DNA of 64,000 nucleotides from Acrasis kona (lineage: Eukaryota > Heterolobosea > Eutetramitea > Acrasida > Acrasidae): the NCBI GenBank assembly GCA_026419775.2, contig JAOPGA020001347.1, positions 1 through 64,000 of the forward strand. The letters are read 5' to 3'. How positions within the stretch are numbered: the stretch's first letter is position 1; each line of letters begins with the position of its first letter. Below the pieces are notes generated by a model. The model was not told the DNA's origin. It did no database searches and saw only the letters and a list, made by a program, of their open reading frames with translations. Shown in pieces: positions 1-56,663 of the stretch. Position numbers and translations under genes: made by a program.

Positions 1-1370
1 ATGTAGTGACCATACACATCAGTCATAGTAACTACTCTAAATGGTCCGCGGTAGGCTTTACCTTTCTTGGTCACTGCCAATGGATTTCTCCACATGACAA
101 TATCCCCAGGCTGATATTCATTCGTCTTCCGGTGGTAAGGTGTTACCTCAAATTTCTTCAATTTAATTTCATGAATTAATTTTGGTACTTCGTTATTGAA
201 ACACTTCCAGAATTCGATTAAGGATCTTTGTTGAGCTTCTAGCTCTTTATCTGAATTGATTGTTGAAGTAGCGACTGATAGTGGACTTCTTCCAAACATC
301 AGCGAGAAAGGGGTGCTCAATGTGGTAGAGTGTACCCTTGAATTCATGGCAAAAGCCACAGCTGAAGCGATCTTATTCCACCGGTATGTGTATTCTGAAA
401 AGTTTTCTTTCAATTCATCAATTATCTTGACTAGGGTGGCTCTAATTGTTCTATTTGCCCTTTCTATTCTTCCATTTGCATGATGGTTATACGCAATCAC
501 CTTATTGTGTCGAACTTTTGCAGCTTCATATACCTTGTTTAACAATGGTACCGAGAACTGCTTTGCATTGTCCGTTTTCAATGTGCAAGGGAAACCAAAA
601 TTGAGAAAAATATCCATCATTTGGTNAATTACCTCTTCCGAGTCAATAGAGACAAGTGGTTTGCACCATACAAACCCAGAGAACTTATCAATCACAGTTA
701 GCAAATAGCTATAACCCTCTTTATCTTTGGGGAGATGCATAATATCAGCGTGCATGTGCTCACAAGTGACGCAGAAATCTGGCGCTAGAGCAGGGGCATA
801 ACCAATTCTAGAATGGTTTGTTTTCTGGCAGATGGCACATTTTGCACAGAATTCTTTGCAGATTTTCATCAGGTTCTTGGGTGGCCTTGGCTCTAATAAC
901 TCAATATGGTTGTATAGAGAGTTTGCTCCAAAGTGAGCTCTGGCATGCAATGTTTCGAGCAATTCTTTGATTTTCTCAGGGGATGTTTCTTCAAACCTTT
1001 TAGCGTCAGATCTTTTCTCTTTCGCAAAAATTACTTGTACACGGGAAGCTAGGTCGGCTAAGGTATTGTCCTCCCCCGGCACATGATGGATATCGAAATC
1101 ATATTCCGAAAGTAGTGACATCCATCCCGACAGGATTGTATTCTTTCCGTTAGCCTTTTCTATTGCTTCAAATATATGCGTTAATGCCTTGGCATCAGAT
1201 GAGTTTAAATGGTCGGCCCAGCAGGTAGGTTCTATAATAGTTTGTATGGACAACAACTGATAATAATTCTTTTCTAGGTATCAAATAATTCTTCTCACTT
1301 TTTGATAAAACTCTAGAATAAAATCCTAAATAACGCTTTTCCCTTTTGTGTGTTCTTCTTTTACATCCTT
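1..1370 (-). pseudogene. RNase H (partial) and integrase of Ty3/gypsy pol, broken
   Basis: The RNase H tail contains SRVLSKSEKNY and, after a frame change near 1200-1250, DIHHVPGEDNTLADLASR, the usual end of gypsy RNase H. The integrase follows in that second frame. It has an HHCC zinc module (HARAH, then CAKC), a first acidic residue in CEHMHADIMH, a second in LKTDNAKQF and a glutamate in NGRIERANRT. The spacing of the last two is 35 residues, i.e. D,D-35-E. A GPF motif (AYRGPFRVV) near the left edge matches the GPY/F module of Ty3-type integrases. The ambiguous base at 626 makes one codon unreadable. The protein would have processed and inserted element cDNA; here it cannot be made intact. 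Confidence 0.85.
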
Positions 1371-2304
1371 CTCCAGTTTTGGTTCCGGGGTGTACCACTT
1401 GAACTTGTTGGTGCCCACATCCTTCCCGTCAGGTTTTCTACATTTTTCCTGAATATGTCCGGGCGTGTTACATTTCCAACAGTTTCGATTCAACAGTCTT
1501 TTTTGTTCGGCCTTGGGTTGGACACTGCCTACTGCCTTTTCTCTTTTTTCCTCCTTCTTCTGACCATGCTCCTGCTTCGGTCTTGTTTTCGGTTTAATGT
1601 AACACCTATCCCCGTCCACATTATAGATTGATTCGATGTGTGCCATCACATCGTCTAAGGCACAAGCTCCATTTGTTTGTATGAACGCTACTACTGTGGC
1701 GCGATGTCTTTCTGGTAACACTCGTGCGAAATCCTGGATACTTTGCTTCGACGGAATGTTTAAGGTCTCTACCTGATTCGAAAACATTCTATTAAAATCC
1801 GGTATTTTATCCCCTCGGTTGATACTAATGGAGTAGTAGTCACTCATAAAATGGCCTCGTGATTTGTTTGTGATTAGCTCCGGGATCGCTTGTTTGATTG
1901 TTTTCCATGTGGCATCTTTAAACTCTGGGGTCTCTAAAGTTGCCTTCACAATGGCACCTTTACGTGGAGGGCACAGATCTATCAATAATGGTAGATAGTC
2001 GGAGTGAGGAACTGTTTTGTTGGCCAAGTAGTCTTGTAGCAATCCCAAATCATCTACTACGTGGGACTCTCTTATCTTTGGGGCGTCTTCGTAAGATGAT
2101 TTCCTCTTTCTGTAGTGAACCATCTCCTTATCCGATCGAATGCTACAGAGCGGATCCACCAATATCTCTAGGTTTTTTTTTTTAAATATGCGCGAATGTT
2201 CCTGATTGCTTCCGCAGCATTTATACGGGCCGTGATCTTGTTGAATCCCACATCTTCGAAAGCTTGCTGTACTGTAGACAGATTTTTTATGTTCACCAAT
2301 GGCC
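1326..2304 (-). pseudogene. gag-like protein with CCHC zinc knuckle
   Basis: The minus-strand frame ending at 1326 carries a basic, Lys/Glu-rich tail with one retroviral-type zinc knuckle, CWKCNTPGHIQEKC (C-X2-C-X4-H-X4-C), at about 1435-1480. This is the nucleic-acid-binding signature of gag nucleocapsid. Upstream sequence resembles a capsid-type helical region but has no family I can name. An 11-base T run on the plus strand (about 2172-2182) lies where two overlapping minus-strand frames could be joined by slippage, so the original gag frame may have been the other one. At 2304 the frame passes without a stop into the OTU-protease element, so one long frame (2801 to 1326) covers parts of two elements. 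Confidence 0.7.
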
Positions 2305-3075
2305 CTAACCAAACTAGGAACACAATGACCAACAGTTGCAGCAAACTGAAATTTTTCATCATTATTTACAGCTAGTGCACATTGGTAATGTGCAAATGTG
2401 AATTTACCTCCATATATATACATCTTGCACTTTGGAGCATTTGTTGTTACAAAACACTGGATGGTGTCAGGGTGTTCCACATTATAAGTAAATATAGCTA
2501 CCTCATACAAATGTGCAGCTACAAGAAAATCAATATCAGTCCAGTGTCTCTTTGGTGTATAAGGCATATTTTGGAATGCATCAACTTGTTTTCTGACATC
2601 AATGTATGTCAATGAGTTTACAAATTCATAGTGTTGATTGTTTGTGCGTAATTTGTATTGTAAACATGCAGTGAAGCATAAAGGACCACAATTACCTTCA
2701 CCACCAGCATCATAAATATTTCTGCCAAAGAATTCATTGATGCTATTATTGTCTATAAATATAGAACTAAGTTGTGCACTGAATTCAATTAAATTAAACA
2801 CTTCTAGATTTTCTTTGTCCTGTATATCAGATTTGTCTTTGGGAATTTTAGTGCTTCTAGAAATTTGTGATTTTATAGCATCAGAAACAGATGTATCAAT
2901 TTTTTTCTTTTTCTTAGGACTGCCTTTTGGTGTTGATAGTGACTTTCTCTTGACATTGGCAGGTAAATTGCCATTTTTCCTCAGCTCCCTCAGCTCCTGT
3001 AAGAAACTTATGCGTTTACTTGATTTGACTACTTTTTCTACAACATAAATATTCTTATCAACACAATTATGATTG
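2305..3075 (-). pseudogene. OTU-like cysteine protease domain with basic linker
   Basis: An open minus-strand frame from about 3075 to 2305 starts with a Lys-rich linker (STPKGSPKKKKKID) and then an OTU-like core. GGEGNCGPLCFTACLQYKL resembles the catalytic GDGNC(L/F) block with the nucleophile Cys. Next comes HWTDIDFLVAAHLYEVAIF, the usual helix and strand, and FTFAHYQCAL provides the likely catalytic His. OTU enzymes remove ubiquitin or related modifiers. The frame has no clear start codon of its own, because the upstream finger modules lie in other frames, and at its 3' end it runs into retrotransposon gag. Assignment to the OTU superfamily rests on motif order and has not been tested by a profile search. 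Confidence 0.6.
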
Positions 3076-23954: not shown

Positions 23955-24830
23955 ATGAGGGTTTGCAGATCATTGGCAGAATTTCAAATCCTTAGAAAGG
24001 CCATTCCACCAGTCAAAAATGTCGGCCTTGTTCCAACCATGGGAGCCCTGCACAGAGGTCACTTGTCTTTGATGGAACTTGCAAAATCACAATGCGATAT
24101 AGTGATTAGCACAATATTCGTTAACCCTACTCAATTCGGACCCAATGAAGATCTTTCAAAATATCCAAGACAAGAAATTGAAGACATCAAAAAACTAGAA
24201 CAATCTAAACACGTGGACTATTTATTGCTACCAACGGTGGAAGATGTGTACCCAAAAGGATTTTCAACATTTGTTAATGTAGAGGGTATAGATGAGCAGA
24301 AAGAAGCCAAAAGTAGACCAGGGCATTTTCGTGGAGTGACCACCGTGGTAAGCAAGCTATTTAATATGACACAGCCACAAAAGGCGTACTTTGGTGCCAA
24401 AGATGCGATGCAGTGCATCGTGATTAAAAAGATGGTACGAGACTTGAACATTCCAATAGAAATTGTAATTGGGCAGACACTAAGGGAACCTGATGGTTTA
24501 GCAATGAGCAGTCGCAATGTTTACCTTTCCGAACAAGACAGAAAAATTTCAACAATTTTGTACAAGTCTTTATCCGCTGCCGAACAATTGTGGAACCTTG
24601 GAAAAGGTTCCCATTGTGAAGTCCACACATCCGCTTCAAACTTAGTCCAAGAAATACTCAAAGTATTATCACAAGAACCTAGTGTGTTGGTCGATTACAT
24701 TAGTGTAGGTAGCAGAGCAGATGGAAGTGAATTGTCGATCGTTGATTATCATGAGGGTGCCATCATTTCACTTGCTGTCAAGCTTGGAACGACTAGGCTT
24801 ATCGATAATATTGAACTCCTTCCCAAATAA
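23955..24830 (+). CDS. panC: Pantothenate synthetase (pantoate-beta-alanine ligase)
   Basis: Single exon, 291 residues, the usual bacterial length. Motifs: PTMGALHRGHLSL (HxGH ATP site), STIFVNPTQFGPNEDL, FGAKDAMQCIVIKKM and REPDGLAMSSRNVYLS (KMSKS-like). It joins pantoate and beta-alanine with ATP to make vitamin B5. No targeting presequence is evident, so it is probably cytosolic. The preceding steps are encoded by the PanB-PanE fusion at 49.7-51.8 kb. The start is the first ATG after the tubulin 3' region. Confidence 0.97.
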   Translation: MRVCRSLAEFQILRKAIPPVKNVGLVPTMGALHRGHLSLMELAKSQCDIVISTIFVNPTQFGPNEDLSKYPRQEIEDIKKLEQSKHVDYLLLPTVEDVYPKGFSTFVNVEGIDEQKEAKSRPGHFRGVTTVVSKLFNMTQPQKAYFGAKDAMQCIVIKKMVRDLNIPIEIVIGQTLREPDGLAMSSRNVYLSEQDRKISTILYKSLSAAEQLWNLGKGSHCEVHTSASNLVQEILKVLSQEPSVLVDYISVGSRADGSELSIVDYHEGAIISLAVKLGTTRLIDNIELLPK

Positions 24831-36763: not shown

Positions 36764-37906
36764 TTATGATTTAATTTTATTTGTTAAATTATTGTATCTC
36801 ATGATCTTACATAGCAAGTGCTCAATATCAACGGCGGTAAGGCCCTCTTCACCATATAAATGTTGCACTTCTTTTGTAGCGTCCTTCACTTTCTCTAATA
36901 ATTTATTGTAAGCCTCTTCGACATCACTATCAGTCACTTGACCAGACTTTAAGTACCCAAGCACATGTAAACATTTAAGACTTCCCATTTTATTTGACTT
37001 TGTAATCTTTGCTATTTCTAATGTACTTGGTTTAGAGAAGAACCCTAACTGATAAAAGTCAACGCTCAACAAATAAGACAATAAAGATCCAGTTACCAAA
37101 TGGGCCTTGTGTTTCTTTAATATTGATACCATCGTTTTTCTGGCATCCATAAAAGACATATTTTTTGCATTCTTGAGCAGATTACAAAGTTCTGGTTCAG
37201 CCTTTAATATATTTTCATAATTTGTTTCGTAGGGATATCTTCCAATGTTTGAGGCATAATTACCAGAGTACGCTGTTAGTCTCCAACTGGACTTGTCTTT
37301 TTGGACCAAATTGCAAAGAACATCAAGAGGAGGTGCTTGGTCAGGATAATCAATGACACCCGCACCTCTGTATTCATCAATACTATCATAACGCTTATGT
37401 ACACATGAACCAAAACTATATGCACGTTTTACAAAATATGTAGTCACAGAAGTTTTATTAGTCAAAAAATCTTGTGGAAGGTTTTTAAACATTAAAAGTA
37501 GAGAATGTGAGTGCTTTCTGAAACAACAGTGCTTTTCTGAGTTTTCATCCAGAATCTCAAGATATTTTTGATCTGAAGGCGATAAATCCTGCCTAGGAGA
37601 TTTTTGTACCCATTTGACCGTTGCTGAAATCAAATCAAGCATTGCTTGTTCTTTTTTGTTATTTTCATTTAAACGAGGCCTTTTAATCTCGGCAACCACT
37701 TCAATCTCTTGATCAGAATTCATGTCATTCTTGATATCAAACTTAACGTCAAGATTATCATCTTCATCCTTGGTATCGACTTTCACACTTTCTGTACCAT
37801 TCTCTTCATCTGAATCCTCGAATTTGATATTGTATTTCTTCTCCTCGATTTTGATATCATCATCAGGATCTTCAAAAATAATAACACATCTCTTTCTTTT
37901 CGTCAT
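36764..37906 (-). CDS. Unrecognised nuclear-type protein
   Basis: Single exon, 380 residues. The N-terminus is basic (TKRKR), then strongly acidic for about 80 residues (DEENGTE, DTKDEDD) with a second basic patch (EIKRPRLNENNKK). Residues 90-380 are mostly helical with no known motif; conserved-looking parts include KHCCFRKHSHSLLLMF and GYLKSGQVTDSDVEEAYNKLLEKV. Nuclear localisation is inferred from the basic patches. No family recognised. Confidence 0.8.
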   Translation of the reverse strand: MTKRKRCVIIFEDPDDDIKIEEKKYNIKFEDSDEENGTESVKVDTKDEDDNLDVKFDIKNDMNSDQEIEVVAEIKRPRLNENNKKEQAMLDLISATVKWVQKSPRQDLSPSDQKYLEILDENSEKHCCFRKHSHSLLLMFKNLPQDFLTNKTSVTTYFVKRAYSFGSCVHKRYDSIDEYRGAGVIDYPDQAPPLDVLCNLVQKDKSSWRLTAYSGNYASNIGRYPYETNYENILKAEPELCNLLKNAKNMSFMDARKTMVSILKKHKAHLVTGSLLSYLLSVDFYQLGFFSKPSTLEIAKITKSNKMGSLKCLHVLGYLKSGQVTDSDVEEAYNKLLEKVKDATKEVQHLYGEEGLTAVDIEHLLCKIMRYNNLTNKIKS

Positions 37907-38054: not shown

Positions 38055-41000
38055 TTATTTATTAAGTGCCAAAGATTCAAGATCTAAAGAATTCTTTAAA
38101 TGGAAGAATTTCAGATTGTATGGTTCCAAAATTTCGTGTGAAAGTCCACAAGAGCAAATTCCGTTCCTGAAGAAATGTGATATTGATTTGGCCTTGACGA
38201 TAACGTCACGTTTATAAAGTCTTGAGTAGATCGCATAAACTTGATGATTGTCATTGTTGATTCTGAGTGATTTTGAGATCATGATTTTTCTATCAACGGG
38301 AGTGTACAAGTGACCAAAAGCAAGAGCTACTTTATCGGGTGACCTCCATAATGCCTCAACTTTAATGTTTGACTTCTTCTTTAAACTGTCGGAAAGGTCT
38401 GGTTCGTATCCAAGTTCAAATGTAGCCCTATCAAACAGTACCGTTAAGAATTCTCGAATGTGTGGATCATCTTGGTATTCATGACCTAATATCTGAATGT
38501 TGGTGATGCCGCACTCTACCGTAATCTTCAATTTCTTTAATGGTTCTTGTCCGAATTTCTGCCGAAGGGCTTCAATTTCATTAATCATACCTTTTTCTTC
38601 ATATAACCTCAAAACAGTATAGTAGGGAACAACATTTTCAAAACCAGGAATTACCGCCATCTTGTCTAAGAATTCGGCAGCACCTTCAACATTTCTTTTT
38701 TTGTAAAAGTAGGTCATAAAACTATTGTAACAGATAAACAAGTGCTGGGGACGACAAGTTTTTTCAACTGTTTGTAACAAATCATGAGCGTCATCGTACA
38801 TATTATTATTTAGATACAACTCAATCATTTGAATGTAATGATCGCCAACCGGAACAATACCGAACTCTTCCTTCATGTGAATAAAGATGGATGTTCCTGC
38901 ATGCAAGAGGTTACCCGCTACACAAACAGTAAGAATCTTTTGGATGGTACTAGAGACTATAAACTCTGGATGGTCGCTTCTCATCATTTCAAACATTAAT
39001 AATGCCTTCTCGTTCATTCCGCTCTGTGATAATGCTCTAAAGGTATATTCCCATGTCGTTGGCTGGGTTTCATTCCGGGAAAGAACACTTTCAAATACTG
39101 CAACGGCTTTCATTGTGTCTCCAGTGTAACCAAAGAATCTAATTATGAAATTCTCTACGGCAGCACTTCTTGTTTTACTTCTCAAATACATTTCATAAAT
39201 GGCAAGGCCCAGCTTGTGCATAATCCTATCCGTACATGCCAAGAACATGACGGCATAAACTTGAGGATGTGCTTTCACTTGATATTCTTCTAACTTTAAC
39301 AACAATGGAAGACATTTTTCTAACTGTTCGGTATCTCTATAAGCTCTAACAATAGACAAAATTGTATCAAGATCTGGTTTAGATTTTTTTAATAAAGCAT
39401 CTAGATGGTGTTCTATTTTTGAAACATTAATTTCCGGTTGTTTACAAATTGCAGAAATGTAGCCGTCATAAATATGAGGGAGGTGGGAGTTCTTTTGACA
39501 CAACTCAACTGCAGTTGCTTCGTCATCATTAAAAGTCAACATTTGCATGGCAGCAACAAGACATTCTTCCAGACGGTACAAATGAGGACGATCCATTAAT
39601 TCATTCAAAACAAAATTAACAGTCTCTGTACCCATAGTGTTTCTACCTACATAACTCATGAGCAAAACCATGCTAGATGCACTTGGTTCCGCTCCATGAT
39701 TAACAAGTTCAGTATACGCAAACAAGAGGTCTTGTGACTCCGTAAGGTGCACGTAGGAAAGGTAAGCATTAAAAACATCTTCATGTTGCAACAAATCATT
39801 TTCGTAGGCTTCCATATAAATGGAATTCACCACTTTAGAATCATGAGCCATGGCAAGTATTACCGCTCCCACCACTGATGGGTCCCGTCTGAACTCTTTA
39901 TACAAAACCATGACATCATCAAAGCACCTATAATAAGCATATAATTTGACCAGCTGTGAGATGCAATATCCTGGAATAGGCGACTTGAATTCACTCACAA
40001 GATAATGAATGTGCATTTGACGACCCGCCTCAAGATCCTTGCTAACCCAAATACCATTAAACAACAATTTCAAAATTGCGACATCTTCAAGAGCGACTTT
40101 TTCTTCTATTGCTTTATTATAAAAATCTATTGCTTCATCAATATTTCCTGTTCTTACATATAACATAATAACATCACGACAGATCTCCGGATGATAAATC
40201 AAATGTTCATTTTCTAATCTTTTTATAACTTTTTTACCAAGATCTATCCTATGAGCCTGCGCACATCCGCGCAATACTACGGAATACATGACGACATCGG
40301 GCTTTTTAAATTTGGACAGCATCTGATAGCCATTGTCAACCATAAAAGAATTTGAAAACAATTTTAAAACAGCAGTAAAAAACAAAAGATTATCAAAATC
40401 ACTTGGACGCGGATTACAATCAATATAAAAATCTAGGGCCTCATGCACCATATTATTTCTCAAATAAGCATTAATCATTGCCGCGGCAAATACCGGCGAC
40501 GGATGTTTTTCCATGGAAACTTTCTTGTGAAAAATTTTTAATGCCGAATCTAGATCGGCTCTGTCTGAATAATACTTTATTGCTTCACATGTCAATCTTT
40601 CATCATTTAAAGTTTGACTTTCGAATTCAGGAGAGGTAATGAGATTAAATATACGGTCGGAAATGTCTCTTCTTTTCTGTTGTGCGGCAGCATTGATGAT
40701 GGTTCCAATGATTCCTGCGGTGGCTTCAATCTTTGAATTAAAAAGTAGGTCGAGCGCCTCTTCAAAGCGATTTGTTAAACAATATAGTTTGAGTTCTCGG
40801 CGAAGTAACATGGCTTCACTAACTGTGATTTTTTTGAGAGCTTTATTTAATAATAGTAAGCGTTCTACAAAGTGAAATTGTTTTTGTGCTAAAAAGAAGT
40901 CCATGATATCTATACCCATCCCCCAATCATCTTCCATGTTATTTTCTTTGAGCATCTCTTCGTACATTTTCATGGTCTCTCCAACTTTGCCCTCGGCCAA

Positions 41001-41129
41001 TAATGCTTTTAATTTTGTTCGTGGTGTGATTTCTGACACATTTAAATCGGCATTGATTGTGTAGTATCGTGTTGTGTTTAAATGTGTAAATGTCTTTTTA
41101 AATGCATTATTGAACAAGAACCTCCTCAT
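38055..41129 (-). CDS. Pentatricopeptide-repeat protein with degenerate DYW domain, mitochondrial
   Basis: Single exon, 1024 residues. The presequence MRRFLFNNAFKKTFTHLNTTRYY suggests mitochondria. Degenerate PPR repeats fill most of the length (e.g. PDVVMYSVVLRGCAQAHRI, HPQVYAVMFLACTDR). The last 130 residues align to a DYW deaminase: YEPDLSDSLKKKS, DKVALAFGHLYTP, ISHFFRNGICSCG. The zinc/catalytic HxE reads SPD, and the CxDCH ligand motif reads NNDNH. DYW proteins perform C-to-U editing in plant organelles and in heterolobosean mitochondria. This one should bind RNA but lacks the residues for deamination, and it ends in 30 extra residues after the CSCG. Confidence 0.88.
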   Translation of the reverse strand: MRRFLFNNAFKKTFTHLNTTRYYTINADLNVSEITPRTKLKALLAEGKVGETMKMYEEMLKENNMEDDWGMGIDIMDFFLAQKQFHFVERLLLLNKALKKITVSEAMLLRRELKLYCLTNRFEEALDLLFNSKIEATAGIIGTIINAAAQQKRRDISDRIFNLITSPEFESQTLNDERLTCEAIKYYSDRADLDSALKIFHKKVSMEKHPSPVFAAAMINAYLRNNMVHEALDFYIDCNPRPSDFDNLLFFTAVLKLFSNSFMVDNGYQMLSKFKKPDVVMYSVVLRGCAQAHRIDLGKKVIKRLENEHLIYHPEICRDVIMLYVRTGNIDEAIDFYNKAIEEKVALEDVAILKLLFNGIWVSKDLEAGRQMHIHYLVSEFKSPIPGYCISQLVKLYAYYRCFDDVMVLYKEFRRDPSVVGAVILAMAHDSKVVNSIYMEAYENDLLQHEDVFNAYLSYVHLTESQDLLFAYTELVNHGAEPSASSMVLLMSYVGRNTMGTETVNFVLNELMDRPHLYRLEECLVAAMQMLTFNDDEATAVELCQKNSHLPHIYDGYISAICKQPEINVSKIEHHLDALLKKSKPDLDTILSIVRAYRDTEQLEKCLPLLLKLEEYQVKAHPQVYAVMFLACTDRIMHKLGLAIYEMYLRSKTRSAAVENFIIRFFGYTGDTMKAVAVFESVLSRNETQPTTWEYTFRALSQSGMNEKALLMFEMMRSDHPEFIVSSTIQKILTVCVAGNLLHAGTSIFIHMKEEFGIVPVGDHYIQMIELYLNNNMYDDAHDLLQTVEKTCRPQHLFICYNSFMTYFYKKRNVEGAAEFLDKMAVIPGFENVVPYYTVLRLYEEKGMINEIEALRQKFGQEPLKKLKITVECGITNIQILGHEYQDDPHIREFLTVLFDRATFELGYEPDLSDSLKKKSNIKVEALWRSPDKVALAFGHLYTPVDRKIMISKSLRINNDNHQVYAIYSRLYKRDVIVKAKSISHFFRNGICSCGLSHEILEPYNLKFFHLKNSLDLESLALNK

Positions 41130-48590: not shown

Positions 48591-49654
48591 AATACTTGGC
48601 ACAAGATAGTTGTACATGCCAAGCTAGTTTCATTGGCCAAGCTTGCGAATTTGTTATGAATGTGGCAGTCAAATGGACTAAGTGGAAGTGAAATAGCGGA
48701 TATTGTGATAGGAGTAGTAAGCTTCGTTTGATTATATTCTTGATTATTGTTAGTTATTATTACATAAGTTTGCATGCATGAACCATCGGCATAAGGATCC
48801 GATAACAGCAGTGTAATTCTTCGATGTGAAGAAATCTCATCAAGACATAGTTGTATAACTAATTAAATATTGATAAATAGGCCTACTTCATTAAATCATA
48901 TTTTTGTCTTTTGTAAAACTCATATCAAAATCAAACAGAGAACCAATAGATGATTTTTTTACCTTCGGTATTTTCCCCATGTGCCATGGTTGAATATTAG
49001 ATCCCCGCAGACTCTCTATTTTTTTCCAACAACCAACCGCATACACAAGTCAAGAATCCAGCTATCAAGTTAATGGTATATACCACAATTGCTTTGGCGA
49101 GAGACGTATCAACGAGGGTCAGGAAGCAAAGAATCCCACTCTTTGCTAGTTGGTTCTCGTCAGACAGCGGATTTACCTCAACACCACAAGTGCTACACTC
49201 TCCACAAGAAGAGATTTAAGGATAGAGTTGTTCATGGATGTCGTGTTTATAAATGCTTTGTATACTTTTGTGGCGTTCGCCTATAAATTGTGGTTGGCGT
49301 AAACAACATGTTGCAATTATATTGACTACTTGTTTTCAAGTGTGATTAATGTTCATGTAACACATATTAGTATTTAAGAGCTTCAGTAAGATTTTCTGTC
49401 CCTTCAAGTTAATCAATCATTGTGAATATTTGATGAGATTCAAGATGGGAGATGAGGAAGTAAGAATCATAATGAGGTGATAGTCCTTACGCGTTGAAGA
49501 CAATTAGAATAAATACATTTAAATTGAAATAACATTTATTGATTAAAGTAAGCAACTTTTCACGGTTCTATTGACTAGATATAATTTGGTTTTGTTTGTT
49601 ACTCTCGATCATTTGATTGATCAACCCACACAGAACTATAAAATTATTTCATTT
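48591..49654. other. Intergenic, no gene seen
   Basis: About 1 kb with only short open frames (e.g. 49089-49286) lacking motifs. It may contain decayed pieces of the pseudogene on its left. The promoter of the PanB-PanE gene should lie at the right end. Confidence 0.5.
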
Positions 49655-51787
49655 ATGTTGTATCGATGTTCAAAGGTGTTACGAAGATTTTCCAACTTCA
49701 GGAACAACCAAGCTATAACACATCAGCCACAACTCTTTTCATCTCGAAGAGTATACTCTTCTCACAGTGCTAAAAGTGCACAAACTGGTGACAAGGGCAG
49801 AACGAGGATGACGATTACTAACTTGAGACAAAAGCACAAAGATCGTGTGCCCATCACAATGGTAACCGCCACCGATTACCACAGTGGAAGCATTTTGGAT
49901 GAATGTAATGTTGATGCAATACTTGTCGGCGATTCTCTATCTATGACCGTTCTAGGACACGAGAACACTACAAGGGTCAATATGCAGCAGATGTTGCATC
50001 ATGCCGAGTGTGTAGCTCGGGCAGTAAAAAAGGGATTCTTGATTGGAGATATGCCGTTTGGAAGTTATGAGTCCAGCAACGAATTGGCCATCCAAAATGC
50101 CATGCGTTTTATAAAAGAGGCGGGCATGCACGCTATAAAAATTGAGGGTGGTGACCAATCAACAATTGAACGAGTAAGATCAATCACATCTGCTGGAATA
50201 CCCGTAGTGGCTCACATTGGTTTGACCCCACAGACAGTTCATGCTACTGGTGGGTATCAACCGTTCGGCAGGACAGAAAAGGAAGCATCAGATTTATTTC
50301 AACAAGCACTTGCTCTTCAAGAGGCTGGATGCGTCATGATTGTATTAGAATGTGTTCCAGACAAGGTCACACAACAAATCACACAACGTTTAATTGTTCC
50401 TACGATCGGAATAGGGAGTGGACCGCATGTGAGTGGTCAAGTATTAGTTTTTCATGACCTGCTGGGAATGTATGATGATAAAGTTCCTCGGTTTTGCAAA
50501 CAGTTTGCGAATTTACATCAACCGATGAAGGATGCAGTCAATTCATATAGAGAAGAGGTTATAACGGGAGCGTTTCCGAATTCTGATTATACTTACCGTA
50601 TAGACAAACAACAACTTTCGCTATTCCTAAGCGACCTGCCTCCTTTGACACAAGAACAATTACAAAGAGTGACTGAAGCTGAGATGAAGTTTTTACAAGG
50701 ATCTAACATTGAACAAGTTCATACTTTTGACAAAAATAAACCTTTAAATGTTCTTGTGGTAGGTGCAGGTGCGCTTGGTAGCTTAATTGGTGGAAAGATT
50801 GCATCAAAAGAGTTTCATAATTTGTGGTTGTGGGATCCGTGGGTGGAGCAAGTTCAAACCATGAGGAACAAAGGACTAACGATTTTGAACCATAAGGAAT
50901 CTGATCCACAAAGAGTATATAAAATAAACATTACCAGTGATGTGAATGAATTGACAGACACTGATTTGAAATTTCATGTTGCTATTGTTCTAACAAAAGG
51001 TTTCAGTAGGAGGGCTGCCCAAGTTGTAGATAAGTGTTTGCATCCTACGGAAGGAGTTGTTGTGACCCTACAAAATGGTGTTGGTAACAAAGAAATGATT
51101 CTTAACGAATTAAAGCAAGTCACTAACCGTCCTGTTCTGCGTGGTCTTGTTTATATTGGTGCTACTCTCATTAAGCCTGGTATTGTCAAACAAAATAGTA
51201 GAAGGGATAAGGAGATCATTCTTGAGTATGATCCTCAGTATAGCATTCCTTTGTTAAGTATGCTTCAGGAGGCAGGGTTTGCGGCACATGCAAGCAAAGA
51301 CATCTCCACACAGATATTCGAAAAATTGATTGTAAACTGCGCCATCAACCCACTAACAGCACTTTTTGGTTTGAAGAATGGTGAGCTGGCCCAAAATCCA
51401 AAGATGAGATCCCTCGTGATGAATATAGTTGGAGAATGCGTGAAAGTGGCGCGCACCGATAAAAGCATCAAATTAGAAACATATGAACCCGAAAAAGTGA
51501 CGGAAAAAATTATGGCAGTAGCGCATAGTACAAGTCACAACATCTCAAGCATGTACAGTGATATCAAGAGATTAAGGGAGAAGAGAGAGAAAGGTGGAGG
51601 TGGAGAGCCAATTTTAACGGAGATTTCTAGAATAAATGGTGCAATTGTACAGGCTGCAAAGAAACACAATTTGAGCGTACCTTATAATGCAATGTTAGTG
51701 GAGATGGTTGAAGCTTTACAGGAGCATTTGAATCAAAGACCACCAGATCACGACATAATGGATGTGCAGACCGAAGATAAAATGTAG
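49655..51787 (+). CDS. Fusion of ketopantoate hydroxymethyltransferase (PanB) and ketopantoate reductase (PanE)
   Basis: Single exon, 710 residues. A mitochondrial-like presequence (MLYRCSKVLRRFSNFR) precedes PanB at about 45-320: ITMVTATDYHSGSILDE, ILVGDSLSMTVLGHENTT, HIGLTPQTVHATGGY, VPTIGIGSGPHVSGQVLV. After a short linker, PanE occupies about 345-700: NVLVVGAGALGSLIGGKIA (NADPH Rossmann), EKLIVNCAINPLTAL (catalytic Lys), TEISRINGAIV. PanB makes ketopantoate from ketoisovalerate and methylenetetrahydrofolate; PanE reduces it to pantoate, so two consecutive steps share one chain. The product feeds PanC, encoded at 23955-24830. Confidence 0.96.
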   Translation: MLYRCSKVLRRFSNFRNNQAITHQPQLFSSRRVYSSHSAKSAQTGDKGRTRMTITNLRQKHKDRVPITMVTATDYHSGSILDECNVDAILVGDSLSMTVLGHENTTRVNMQQMLHHAECVARAVKKGFLIGDMPFGSYESSNELAIQNAMRFIKEAGMHAIKIEGGDQSTIERVRSITSAGIPVVAHIGLTPQTVHATGGYQPFGRTEKEASDLFQQALALQEAGCVMIVLECVPDKVTQQITQRLIVPTIGIGSGPHVSGQVLVFHDLLGMYDDKVPRFCKQFANLHQPMKDAVNSYREEVITGAFPNSDYTYRIDKQQLSLFLSDLPPLTQEQLQRVTEAEMKFLQGSNIEQVHTFDKNKPLNVLVVGAGALGSLIGGKIASKEFHNLWLWDPWVEQVQTMRNKGLTILNHKESDPQRVYKINITSDVNELTDTDLKFHVAIVLTKGFSRRAAQVVDKCLHPTEGVVVTLQNGVGNKEMILNELKQVTNRPVLRGLVYIGATLIKPGIVKQNSRRDKEIILEYDPQYSIPLLSMLQEAGFAAHASKDISTQIFEKLIVNCAINPLTALFGLKNGELAQNPKMRSLVMNIVGECVKVARTDKSIKLETYEPEKVTEKIMAVAHSTSHNISSMYSDIKRLREKREKGGGGEPILTEISRINGAIVQAAKKHNLSVPYNAMLVEMVEALQEHLNQRPPDHDIMDVQTEDKM

Positions 51788-52898: not shown

Positions 52899-55800
52899 AT
52901 GAGCACAGAAAGAGACAGCAACGGGTTGTCTTTAATCGAGTTCTACCGTGGAAAGACCTTGCTATGCACAGGTTGCTCCGGTTTTCTTGGTAAAGTGTTA
53001 GTAGAGAAGATACTACGCTGTTTGCCAGATGTCAAGAAAGTGTATTTGCTCATTAGACCAAAGGGTAAAAGCACAGATATCAATGGAAGAATGAAAAAGG
53101 AGATTCTTGACTCACCAATTATGAACCACCTAAAGGAGAAGATTGGAGAAAAAGAATTTTACGAGCTTGCGTACTCAAAGCTTGAAGCAGTTGCTGGAGA
53201 TGTTGCCGTCCCTACCTTCTTTGTTGACAATGGTGAGGTCAAGGCACAACAAGTTATAGATAGACTCAAGAAGGAAGTAAATGTGATAATCCATAGTGCA
53301 GCCACAATCGGTTTCCACGAGAGACTGGATGTTGCCATCGAGCTCAATACATTCGGACCAGTTAATGCAGTAAAGTTTGCCGTTCAGTGTGAAAACATTG
53401 AAGCAGTGGCACACATTTCAACATGCTTTGTTAACTCCAATACAAAGAGTGGTACGAAAATCCAAGAGAAGCTATATCCCGTCCAACTACCCGGAAACGA
53501 AGACATTGAAGACTTCTGCAGAAGAGTTATGGCCATGACACCTGCTGAGGCAGAGAAAACTTCAGACAAGTATTTAAAACAATTCGGCTTCCCCAACACG
53601 TATACCTTCACCAAGCGCATGGGTGAGATTTTAGCAGAAAAACACGCCAGAGGAAGAGTTCCACTAGCCATCGTGAGACCAAGTATCGTTGGTGGTGCCA
53701 TGAAGGAACCCTGTGCTGGTTGGGTAGATACCGTTAGTGCTGCTGGTAGCGTGTACCTGTTCGTCGGACTTGGAATTCTATCCGTGCTTCCTGGTGATGC
53801 TAAATGTGTTACCGACCAAATCCCAGTTGATTTTGTAGTCAACGCAATGCTTAGCTGTCCCGTCGACGTGAACGCACGTTACAAGAGGTTAGGAGAAATG
53901 TACCGGGTCTACCATTCTGGTTCCAGTTTCTACAATCCATGCACTTGGCAAATGTGCGTTACTGGTGTGGTCAACTACTGGCGCATGCACCCAAGCGTCA
54001 AGGCCATCGCTCCAGCAGAATTCAACTTAATTACAAGCAGCTGGTATTATAATACCCAATTCTTCATGTCCTACACATGGATCAGAAAGTTATATTCCCT
54101 TCTTGCCACCTGGAACAAGTCACATGCCAAAATAGCAGAAACCCTCATCAAGATGGAAAACAGAGCCAACATTATGAAGAAGAGTTTCGCCTACTTCACC
54201 TCTAACGAATGGATCTTTGAAAGTCAACACGTAAATGACATTCAACAAAGCATCGTGCCTGCAGAGAGAGACATTTTCTTCCTAGACACAAAAATGATTG
54301 ATTGGAACACATACTTTAACTGGTTCTGCTACGGCCTACACAAACACATTTTGAAGGAAGATCCCCCACTACCAGTCACTTCCAATGTAGTCAGCATGGT
54401 CAGCACCACATACTCGTCCAACATGGCTTCCGACATTAACTTTGTGTATTCCGCCAGCGGAGACTTTACTAGGAACGGAGTCACGACAGCACGTAGAGAA
54501 TTGATGCAAACCGTCATGAACTCACAAGCAGTCAGATACGAAATCACAGCAGAAGCACATCGCAGCAGCGTCTTGGAAGCAGAAAGAAGAGCCTTTGGCA
54601 TCATGGACAGAATGTTCGCGGACCCCGACCACCGCGTCGTTCGCATGTTATCGTGGACGTTAAGAAAAGTTTGGAGAAGATTATACCAAAGCATCAACAT
54701 CAACAGCGAAGAAGTTTACATGCTAAAACAGTTAGCTTCACAAGTCAACAAGAAAAACTCCGACAACAACGACGGTCACATTGATGGTTTCGATCCATCC
54801 AGCATGACACATCCACCAGGTCCATTGATCCTGATCCCCACGCATCGTAGTTACTTGGACTTTTTAATCATTAGTTACATTTTCTTCGCCTACTCCATTC
54901 CAGTACCACACATTGCAGCAGGAGAAGACTTTTTGAACATGAGCGTCGTCAGGAACATTTTCAGACATTCCGGTGCATTCTTCATCAGAAGACAATTCGG
55001 AGACGATCCGCTCTACAGAAGCATTTTCGCACAATACGTTCAACATTTACTCATGGACGGTTGTCCGATGGAATTCTTCGTCGAAGGAACCAGAAGTAGA
55101 TCCGGAAAAACACTTCAACCCAAATTAGGATTATTAAGCATCATAGTTGACTCCTTCTTGGAAAAGAAAGTTCCGAACCTGACCATCGTACCCGTCAACA
55201 TTTCATACGAAAAACTCATCGAAGGTCAAGCATACAGCGACGAACTCTTGGGAAATGCAAAAAAGAAGGAATCGCTAAAGAACTTGGTGAAGGCCAGAAA
55301 CGTGCTGGGAAACAAGTACGGAGACATTCACGTCAAGATCGCACCGCCGATCAGCTTGGCCGATTACGTGACTCAACTAAGGAGCCAAGACGCTCACTTA
55401 CAAATTCCAAGAAAGTCATCTGGCGTCGAAGAGGACTCTTCGCAAAACAACGAAAACGAAAGTCAAGAATCGAACGAACGATCCGATCTGAAAGATCGTC
55501 AGTTCGATCCATTCGTTCATTCCCACGACAAGAACATCTTGGTCAGGAGATTAGCTTACAAGATCACTCACGAACTAAACGGCGCCAGCATCATTCCGGC
55601 CACATCTCTGGTGGCATCCATCGTGCTTGCTTATCGCGACGGAATTAGTTTGGACGAACTGAACAGGAGGACGGAGTGGCTGAAGCAATTGATCGTGGAG
55701 AGAGGAGGAGAGGTGAGCTGGGTGGCAGGTGATTTGAAGGAGGGAAGCATCGCCAGGCACTCTCAACAAAGCTTCAGCACGAGCGCAGTCGTCGATAGAG

Positions 55801-56663
55801 CGCTGGGATTGATGAGCGATGTGGTGGTCAAAAGAAAGTTCATGATTGAACCAGGTGTAAATTCTAGAAACGAACATAAAAAATTCATTCAGTTGGGTGT
55901 GTATCGCAACCAATTACTTTATTTATTTGTTAAGGAAAGTATTGTTTGTTGTGCTTATGAACAACAAGTGTCAAAGTTAGAAAAGGACGCTTCTAACGGC
56001 GCTGATAAAGGCGTGAATGTGCAAGATTTGTTAACTAGTTGCAAGTTCTTGAGTAGTTTGATGAGACATGAGTTTGTAAAGCAAGAAAATCCGGACGATA
56101 ATGATAACTATGATGCTGTTTTGGATAAAATGATTCAGAGAGGAATCTTTATTAAAAATGAAAATCATGTTCAACTACCTCTTACGAGCGTAGAGACTCA
56201 TCGTTTTATGTGTTCTTTGTTGTGGCCTTTTATCGAAAGTTATTGGGCTGCTACGATGGCTGTTCTCACCTTGTTGTTCACTGGAAGTGAAAAGGAACAG
56301 TTGAATAGCGTGGAAGAAAATGTCTTGATACAAAGAACTCAGTGGTTGGCCGAAAAACTCTTCTTTGAAGACAAGATTCACTTTTATGAATGTTGTTCTC
56401 TTGATACCATCAAGAATGCAATTAACACTTTGGTTACTTTCCGCGTCTTGTCCAGATCTTCTAGAAGCGAGAAGAAAAATGCAAGCGAGAAGTTGCCGCC
56501 TGTTCCACACGTCCATTTGTTGCCACCATACACTGAGATGGACAAGTTGTTTGGAGTTGTTCAAAATGTCCAGAATTACAGAAAGGCCAGCAACAAGACT
56601 CTACATGACATGATGGGAGCTGCATCCCGCAAGAGTGTCTTCCCATTCAGTCCAAAATTGTGA
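52899..56663 (+). CDS. Fatty acyl-CoA reductase fused to DHAP/glycerol-phosphate acyltransferase
   Basis: Single exon, 1254 residues. Residues 15-500 are an alcohol-forming acyl-CoA reductase: LLCTGCSGFLGKVLVEKIL (NADPH), VIIHSAATIGFHE, YTFTKRMGEILAEK (Tyr/Lys pair), LAIVRPSIVGG. Residues about 560-960 are a GNPAT/PlsB-type acyltransferase: IPTHRSYLDFL (HX4D, near 649), FFIRRQFGDDPLYRS, FFVEGTRSRSGKT (near 729), IVPVNISYEKLIEG. The C-terminal PKL resembles a peroxisomal PTS1. The two activities supply fatty alcohol and acyl-DHAP, the two inputs of ether-lipid synthesis; a similar fusion is known in Tetrahymena (TtFARAT). The next gene starts 24 bp after the stop. Confidence 0.95.
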   Translation: MSTERDSNGLSLIEFYRGKTLLCTGCSGFLGKVLVEKILRCLPDVKKVYLLIRPKGKSTDINGRMKKEILDSPIMNHLKEKIGEKEFYELAYSKLEAVAGDVAVPTFFVDNGEVKAQQVIDRLKKEVNVIIHSAATIGFHERLDVAIELNTFGPVNAVKFAVQCENIEAVAHISTCFVNSNTKSGTKIQEKLYPVQLPGNEDIEDFCRRVMAMTPAEAEKTSDKYLKQFGFPNTYTFTKRMGEILAEKHARGRVPLAIVRPSIVGGAMKEPCAGWVDTVSAAGSVYLFVGLGILSVLPGDAKCVTDQIPVDFVVNAMLSCPVDVNARYKRLGEMYRVYHSGSSFYNPCTWQMCVTGVVNYWRMHPSVKAIAPAEFNLITSSWYYNTQFFMSYTWIRKLYSLLATWNKSHAKIAETLIKMENRANIMKKSFAYFTSNEWIFESQHVNDIQQSIVPAERDIFFLDTKMIDWNTYFNWFCYGLHKHILKEDPPLPVTSNVVSMVSTTYSSNMASDINFVYSASGDFTRNGVTTARRELMQTVMNSQAVRYEITAEAHRSSVLEAERRAFGIMDRMFADPDHRVVRMLSWTLRKVWRRLYQSININSEEVYMLKQLASQVNKKNSDNNDGHIDGFDPSSMTHPPGPLILIPTHRSYLDFLIISYIFFAYSIPVPHIAAGEDFLNMSVVRNIFRHSGAFFIRRQFGDDPLYRSIFAQYVQHLLMDGCPMEFFVEGTRSRSGKTLQPKLGLLSIIVDSFLEKKVPNLTIVPVNISYEKLIEGQAYSDELLGNAKKKESLKNLVKARNVLGNKYGDIHVKIAPPISLADYVTQLRSQDAHLQIPRKSSGVEEDSSQNNENESQESNERSDLKDRQFDPFVHSHDKNILVRRLAYKITHELNGASIIPATSLVASIVLAYRDGISLDELNRRTEWLKQLIVERGGEVSWVAGDLKEGSIARHSQQSFSTSAVVDRALGLMSDVVVKRKFMIEPGVNSRNEHKKFIQLGVYRNQLLYLFVKESIVCCAYEQQVSKLEKDASNGADKGVNVQDLLTSCKFLSSLMRHEFVKQENPDDNDNYDAVLDKMIQRGIFIKNENHVQLPLTSVETHRFMCSLLWPFIESYWAATMAVLTLLFTGSEKEQLNSVEENVLIQRTQWLAEKLFFEDKIHFYECCSLDTIKNAINTLVTFRVLSRSSRSEKKNASEKLPPVPHVHLLPPYTEMDKLFGVVQNVQNYRKASNKTLHDMMGAASRKSVFPFSPKL

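Follow-up and report, generated by a model that had tools for sequence, protein, structure and literature searches.

We describe a pentatricopeptide repeat (PPR) protein of the heterolobosean social amoeba Acrasis kona whose C-terminal DYW domain, read from its sequence, has lost every part of the catalytic centre and has kept the structural zinc site. The intronless gene, of 1024 amino acids with a TAA stop, lies at 38055..41129 on the minus strand, like all its parts given below, of positions 1 to 64,000 of contig JAOPGA020001347.1 (assembly GCA_026419775.2; this 64,000-nucleotide stretch is the window). Pfam DYW_deaminase matched residues 907–995 (38145..38411) with 59.4 bits (E 3.1e-16, cut-off 24), and a genome-wide PF14432 search placed the domain at 38145–38411 too. 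A DYW domain with replaced deaminase residues had been reported at this place by a first-pass annotation made from the letters alone. That annotation is correct, if a little short of the full picture: the loss at the catalytic site was seen and the retention of the structural site was missed.

In OTP86, H892, C920 and C923 bind the catalytic zinc (Zn1) and E894 is the catalytic Glu; the ligands of the structural zinc (Zn2) are H924, H947, C954 and C956 (PMC7611903). The equivalents of H892, C920, C923 and E894 here are S, N, N and D, and none of the four is kept. SPD stands for HSE at residues 930–932 (38334..38342; codons TCA CCC GAT), with loss of the Zn1 His ligand and the catalytic Glu, and NNDNH stands for CxDCH at residues 958–962 (38244..38258; AAC AAT GAC AAT CAT), where both Zn1 Cys are lost and the Zn2 His is kept. 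The second Zn2 His and both Zn2 Cys are retained in HFFRNGICSC (38148..38177). Mapped from OTP86, the seven zinc ligands thus divide into three lost (Zn1) and four kept (Zn2: H962, H985, C992 and C994), and the earlier statement that most zinc ligands had been removed holds for the catalytic site but fails for the structural one. Zinc would presumably be bound at the Zn2 site. Single-residue mutants described for a related protein make it probable that deaminase activity has been lost.

The altered motifs were recovered by every alignment. A profile built from ten intact paralogues of the same genome passed through both motifs without a gap and showed no HxE or CxxCH that could take their place; when the protein was aligned by phmmer to OTP86, DYW1 and a synthetic PPR–DYW protein, the motifs were again ungapped and gave the same residues, in agreement with the codons. 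The possibility that another alignment would restore intact HxE and CxxCH motifs is therefore rejected. Sequencing error is not a reasonable cause, since the change from His/Cys/Cys/Glu to Ser/Asn/Asn/Asp takes several base changes in separate codons. Introns were considered because one paralogue, C772 (L013, G000:C772:77449-77766), carries a small GT..AG intron, located by eye, between the second Cys and the His of CxDCH; no sign of a hidden intron producing false motifs was seen at the present gene.

The PF14432 search of the genome gave 15 matches over the cut-off; one more, at 14.8 bits, was dropped. Eleven of the 15 are motif-intact by reading (C252, C750, C890, C803, C617, C428, C569, C794, C608, C675 and C520), and C772 becomes so when its intron is spliced by eye, giving LDCHS. 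The others are two degenerate domains, those of the present gene (C686) and of C496, and a decayed fragment, C334. To count conserved columns we used ten intact domains, leaving out C428 (a near copy of C617), C772 and C334. At the 18 columns invariant among them, C686 keeps 0 of 4 Zn1/Glu positions, 4 of 4 Zn2 positions and 6 of 10 others, and C496 keeps 1 of 4, 4 of 4 and 9 of 10, respectively. The C686 domain is 26–38% identical to the intact paralogues.

C496 (L014/L037, G000:C496:15434-15718, minus strand) reads RAE/DPDSH for HSE/CxDCH. Like C686, it has lost all three Zn1 ligands (to R, D and S), keeps the four Zn2 ligands and has no E-motif hit. Unlike C686, it keeps the catalytic Glu; its other replacement residues differ, and the two domains are 24% identical. 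They were not grouped in the best tree, were grouped in 4% of 200 bootstrap trees, and a shared clade was not rejected by the approximately unbiased (AU) test (p 0.159). Several further members of the set deserve description. C520 (L012/L035, G000:C520:64985-65242, minus strand) combines an intact active site with weakly scoring PPRs; it gave no E-motif hit, and its C terminus is extended by more than 30 amino acids. C617 (L005) and C428 (L007) are near-identical copies of a DYW protein on two contigs, either a recent duplicate or separately assembled alleles. C334 (L015, G000:C334:63679-63834) covers profile positions 42–92 only, with an in-frame stop inside, and is likely a true pseudogene.

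Outside the genome, we compared 120 proteins, a biased sample consisting of P0002 and 119 among the best 120 of 714 found with paralogue C750 as query; P0005, which contains the A. kona C890 protein exactly, was left out. Of these, 118 were complete at the eight sites: 114 were intact and four had one or two Zn1/Glu changes, the HxE alignment being uncertain in two of the four (P0061 and P0107). Loss of all four Zn1/Glu positions was found in 0 of the 118, drawn from the best 120 of 714. Partial Zn1 damage with Zn2 kept thus occurs elsewhere, and complete loss was, within this sample, confined to the A. kona protein. The literature searched, as far as its accessible text goes, holds no report of a DYW domain without all Zn1 ligands yet with Zn2 kept. 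The protein may be described as a pseudo-DYW member of the known DYW class, and its present function we infer only.

An AlphaFold2 model of the 1024-residue protein contains about 23 helical pairs and a full-length, well-folded DYW domain. The paired helices form a PPR solenoid over about residues 36–858 (38556..41024), and Pfam PPR (62.4 bits) and PPR_2 (50.8 bits) both scored above their cut-offs; structural matches that ranked after those to DYW and deaminase entries were disregarded as generic. The N-terminal 35 residues (41025..41129) are basic, with 5 K/R and 2 D/E, and may be a mitochondrial presequence; such an N terminus would suit mitochondrial import, making a mitochondrial location possible. 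Residues 859–906 (38412..38555) are the counterpart of the PG box and E+ region of the paralogues. At the other end, CSCG is followed by a 29-residue extension (38058..38144) in place of the terminal tripeptide, predicted as a helix with low confidence (predicted local distance difference test score, pLDDT, mostly <50). A terminal DYW is also absent from the 12 intact A. kona loci, nine of which end in Tyr soon after CxC.

The sequence before the domain lacks the usual editing-type features. The E_motif profile gave no match in this protein up to E 1 and none at its locus in the genome search, and the PG residues were absent from its alignments, leaving the PG box unrecognisable. When nine other long DYW proteins were scanned, seven had an E_motif hit; the exceptions were C520 and C496. 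Genome-wide, a six-frame, exon-by-exon search yielded 10 E-motif matches (nine over the cut-off), all inside DYW loci, and no DYW-less E-class protein was seen in it. Seven repeats of the present protein scored over threshold, and in one of the seven the 5/last code pair is usable. The corresponding counts are 62 of 109 repeats for seven canonical paralogues, 1 of 7 for C520 and 3 of 10 for C496, all made with a repeat profile that was built from the canonical paralogues and favours them.

These features bear on one of the two roles proposed by the first-pass annotation, that of a pseudo-editing cofactor with a catalytic partner. On this reading, the protein would pick the site or hold the RNA, and deamination in trans would fall to an intact DYW protein, for example C520 or one of the canonical paralogues. 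In plants, recruitment of DYW domains in trans is well established (PMC7076377). CRR4 with DYW1, and E+ proteins with DYW2, are precedents, and C520, with its intact active site, missing E-motif hit and weak PPRs, loosely resembles DYW1-type donors and is a conceivable trans deaminase. The reading is weakened because all ten E-motif matches lie in DYW loci, no DYW-less E-class partner was seen, and this protein itself has neither an E motif nor an intact PG box and only one of seven usable code pairs. We found no support for the cofactor role and regard it as unlikely. A MORF profile had no match in the genome, nor in any control genome.

The editing context is known from earlier work: A. kona is reported to have 12 DYW proteins and Naegleria gruberi 11, with only two confirmed C-to-U edits each (PMC4202320). 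The A. kona edits lie in atp6 and cob, and the 12 A. kona DYW-type PPR proteins described there all have a PG box (PMC4202320). Since no PG box is recognisable here, our protein is probably outside these 12. No match of the cox1 or nad2/4/5 type was present in the assembly. The mitochondrial DNA of A. kona has the accession NC_026286 (PMC6029061), and transcriptomes of its development have been published (PMC11589745). The authors of the editing study suggest other roles for the surplus DYW proteins (PMC4202320).

A surplus could also mean that the gene is in decay, redundancy among DYW factors having lifted selection and left an early pseudogene. DYW proteins do outnumber known editing sites (PMC4202320), the decayed fragment C334 exists in the genome, and the E motif, PG box and code of this protein are eroded. 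However, its reading frame is open across 1024 codons, without the disruption that marks a pseudogene. In a neutral simulation of 200 copies without indels, 17, 1, 0, 0 and 0 copies remained stop-free at 0.02, 0.05, 0.1, 0.2 and 0.4 substitutions per site, respectively. At this divergence (26–38% domain identity) neutral copies carry many stops, and a frame of this length without any therefore favours a maintained protein and disfavours neutral decay. The four retained Zn2 ligands and the good fold model also speak against decay, which we consider very improbable.

The other role named by the first-pass annotation, reuse of the domain to bind RNA, or else a structural use of it, would fit better than the cofactor role, given that the domain retains its fold and structural zinc site. 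Of that interpretation, a heterolobosean DYW domain without deaminase residues is supported, whereas the cofactor option found no support. In the sequence of events that we favour, a gene for a DYW-type PPR editing factor would have lost its deaminase chemistry while the protein was retained, the intact structural zinc site holding the DYW fold together. The domain would then serve as a non-catalytic cap, or as an RNA- or protein-contact module, at the end of the PPR solenoid, with a role in mitochondrial RNA handling (stabilisation, processing, splicing, translation or ribonucleoprotein (RNP) assembly). The retained fold and zinc ligands also suggest to us that the domain remains functional in some way, apparently preserved for a different task. 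Taken as a whole, this explanation appears somewhat probable to us.

Two narrower proposals assign the domain a specific task. The protein might belong to a mitochondrial RNP, for instance the mitoribosome, as a structural PPR subunit whose DYW domain provides a zinc-stabilised surface for contacts. The diverged repeats and few code pairs are consistent with this, and weak sequence matches include the plant mitoribosomal PPR proteins mS77, mS76, mS80 and mL102; but such matches are to be expected of any PPR solenoid and score below those to PPR–DYW and designed PPR proteins, and nothing positive points to any complex, which makes the proposal distinctly doubtful. Alternatively, the pocket, now lined by Ser, Asp, Asn and Asn, might do other chemistry, for example metal-dependent RNA cleavage. 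Asp and Asn side chains can bind metals. DYW proteins have also been tied to RNA cleavage, CRR2 being an example (PMC7076377). Such chemistry is nonetheless purely speculative and, in our judgement, hardly credible.

Several observations weigh against a retained, non-catalytic module in mitochondrial RNA handling. Zn2 was kept in all 118 complete external DYW proteins, and folding stability alone may account for its retention. The Fisher test comparing Zn1 with Zn2 (p 0.029 for C686 alone; 0.0014 pooled with C496) was post hoc, used few columns and relied on reference rows picked as intact, and the pooled value treats the two losses as independent, something neither shown nor excluded by the tree. 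Full-length and C-terminal searches for an orthologue returned only the window's own fragment P0001, the full-length search adding one Macleaya protein at 25%; these searches were word-limited, with E-values for 5.8 billion sequences, and left the A. kona paralogues unlisted though C890 (P0005) is in the database. With no orthologue found at this limited sensitivity, constraint on the altered residues can only be presumed. The helical moment of the N-terminal 35 residues is modest, and the PPR code looks eroded, which would argue against classic sequence-specific RNA binding.

More broadly, and tentatively, exaptation in A. kona may have turned DYW domains, perhaps on two occasions, into zinc-stabilised modules without catalysis, giving a pseudo-DYW class with non-editing mitochondrial RNA work. 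If true, such a class would help explain the surplus of heterolobosean DYW proteins over edits. Proteins with a dead DYW domain would tend to be lost to filtering. A dead DYW domain with its structural zinc ligands is also a natural separation-of-function case for non-deamination roles of DYW domains.

Other genes were noted in the window. Adjoining the DYW gene, a 380-amino-acid frame (36764–37906, minus strand) matches the helical domain of a 5-hydroxymethyldeoxyuridine (5-hmdU) DNA kinase, but only below threshold (16.1 bits, cut-off 25). A fusion of ketopantoate hydroxymethyltransferase and ketopantoate reductase (PanB-PanE) lies at 49571–51787 (plus strand) and a pantoate-beta-alanine ligase gene (PanC) at 23955–24830. 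The 1254-amino-acid frame at 52899–56663 (plus strand) joins fatty acyl-CoA reductase domains to a glycerol-3-phosphate-type acyltransferase with GPAT_C. At 1326–2801 (minus strand), a 491-amino-acid frame, with no Pfam match at E 0.01, has an OTU-like N terminus and, by eye, a CCHC-type knuckle; it is possibly a retroelement-derived protein.

Compared with known systems, the protein shares with canonical DYW editing factors (OTP86, PPR65 and the A. kona paralogues) the N-terminal PPR solenoid, the C-terminal DYW fold, the four structural-zinc ligands and an ungapped alignment through both motifs. It differs from them in lacking the catalytic-zinc ligands, the catalytic Glu, an E-motif match and an intact PG box, and in its 29-residue tail after CSCG. 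DYW1 and DYW2 have been proposed to supply deaminase activity, and trans donors of this kind (DYW1, DYW2 and MEF8) resemble our protein in having no PG box and a deviant E region (PMC7076377). These donors, however, combine an intact deaminase with very few PPRs, whereas here a long solenoid of about 23 helical pairs ends in a domain without a catalytic centre. CRR2, which acts in plastid RNA cleavage and not in editing, offers a precedent for a non-editing job in the DYW class (PMC7076377). With E+-type PPR proteins, whose DYW domain is truncated or degenerate, the absence of DYW catalytic function is shared, but the domain here is degenerate at full length and there is neither an E-motif nor an E+ hit. 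ADAT3 keeps its zinc site and pairs with ADAT2. The A. kona protein, which has lost its Zn1 ligands and has no known partner, differs in both respects from such pseudo-deaminase subunits and shares with them a deaminase fold kept after the loss of a catalytic residue.
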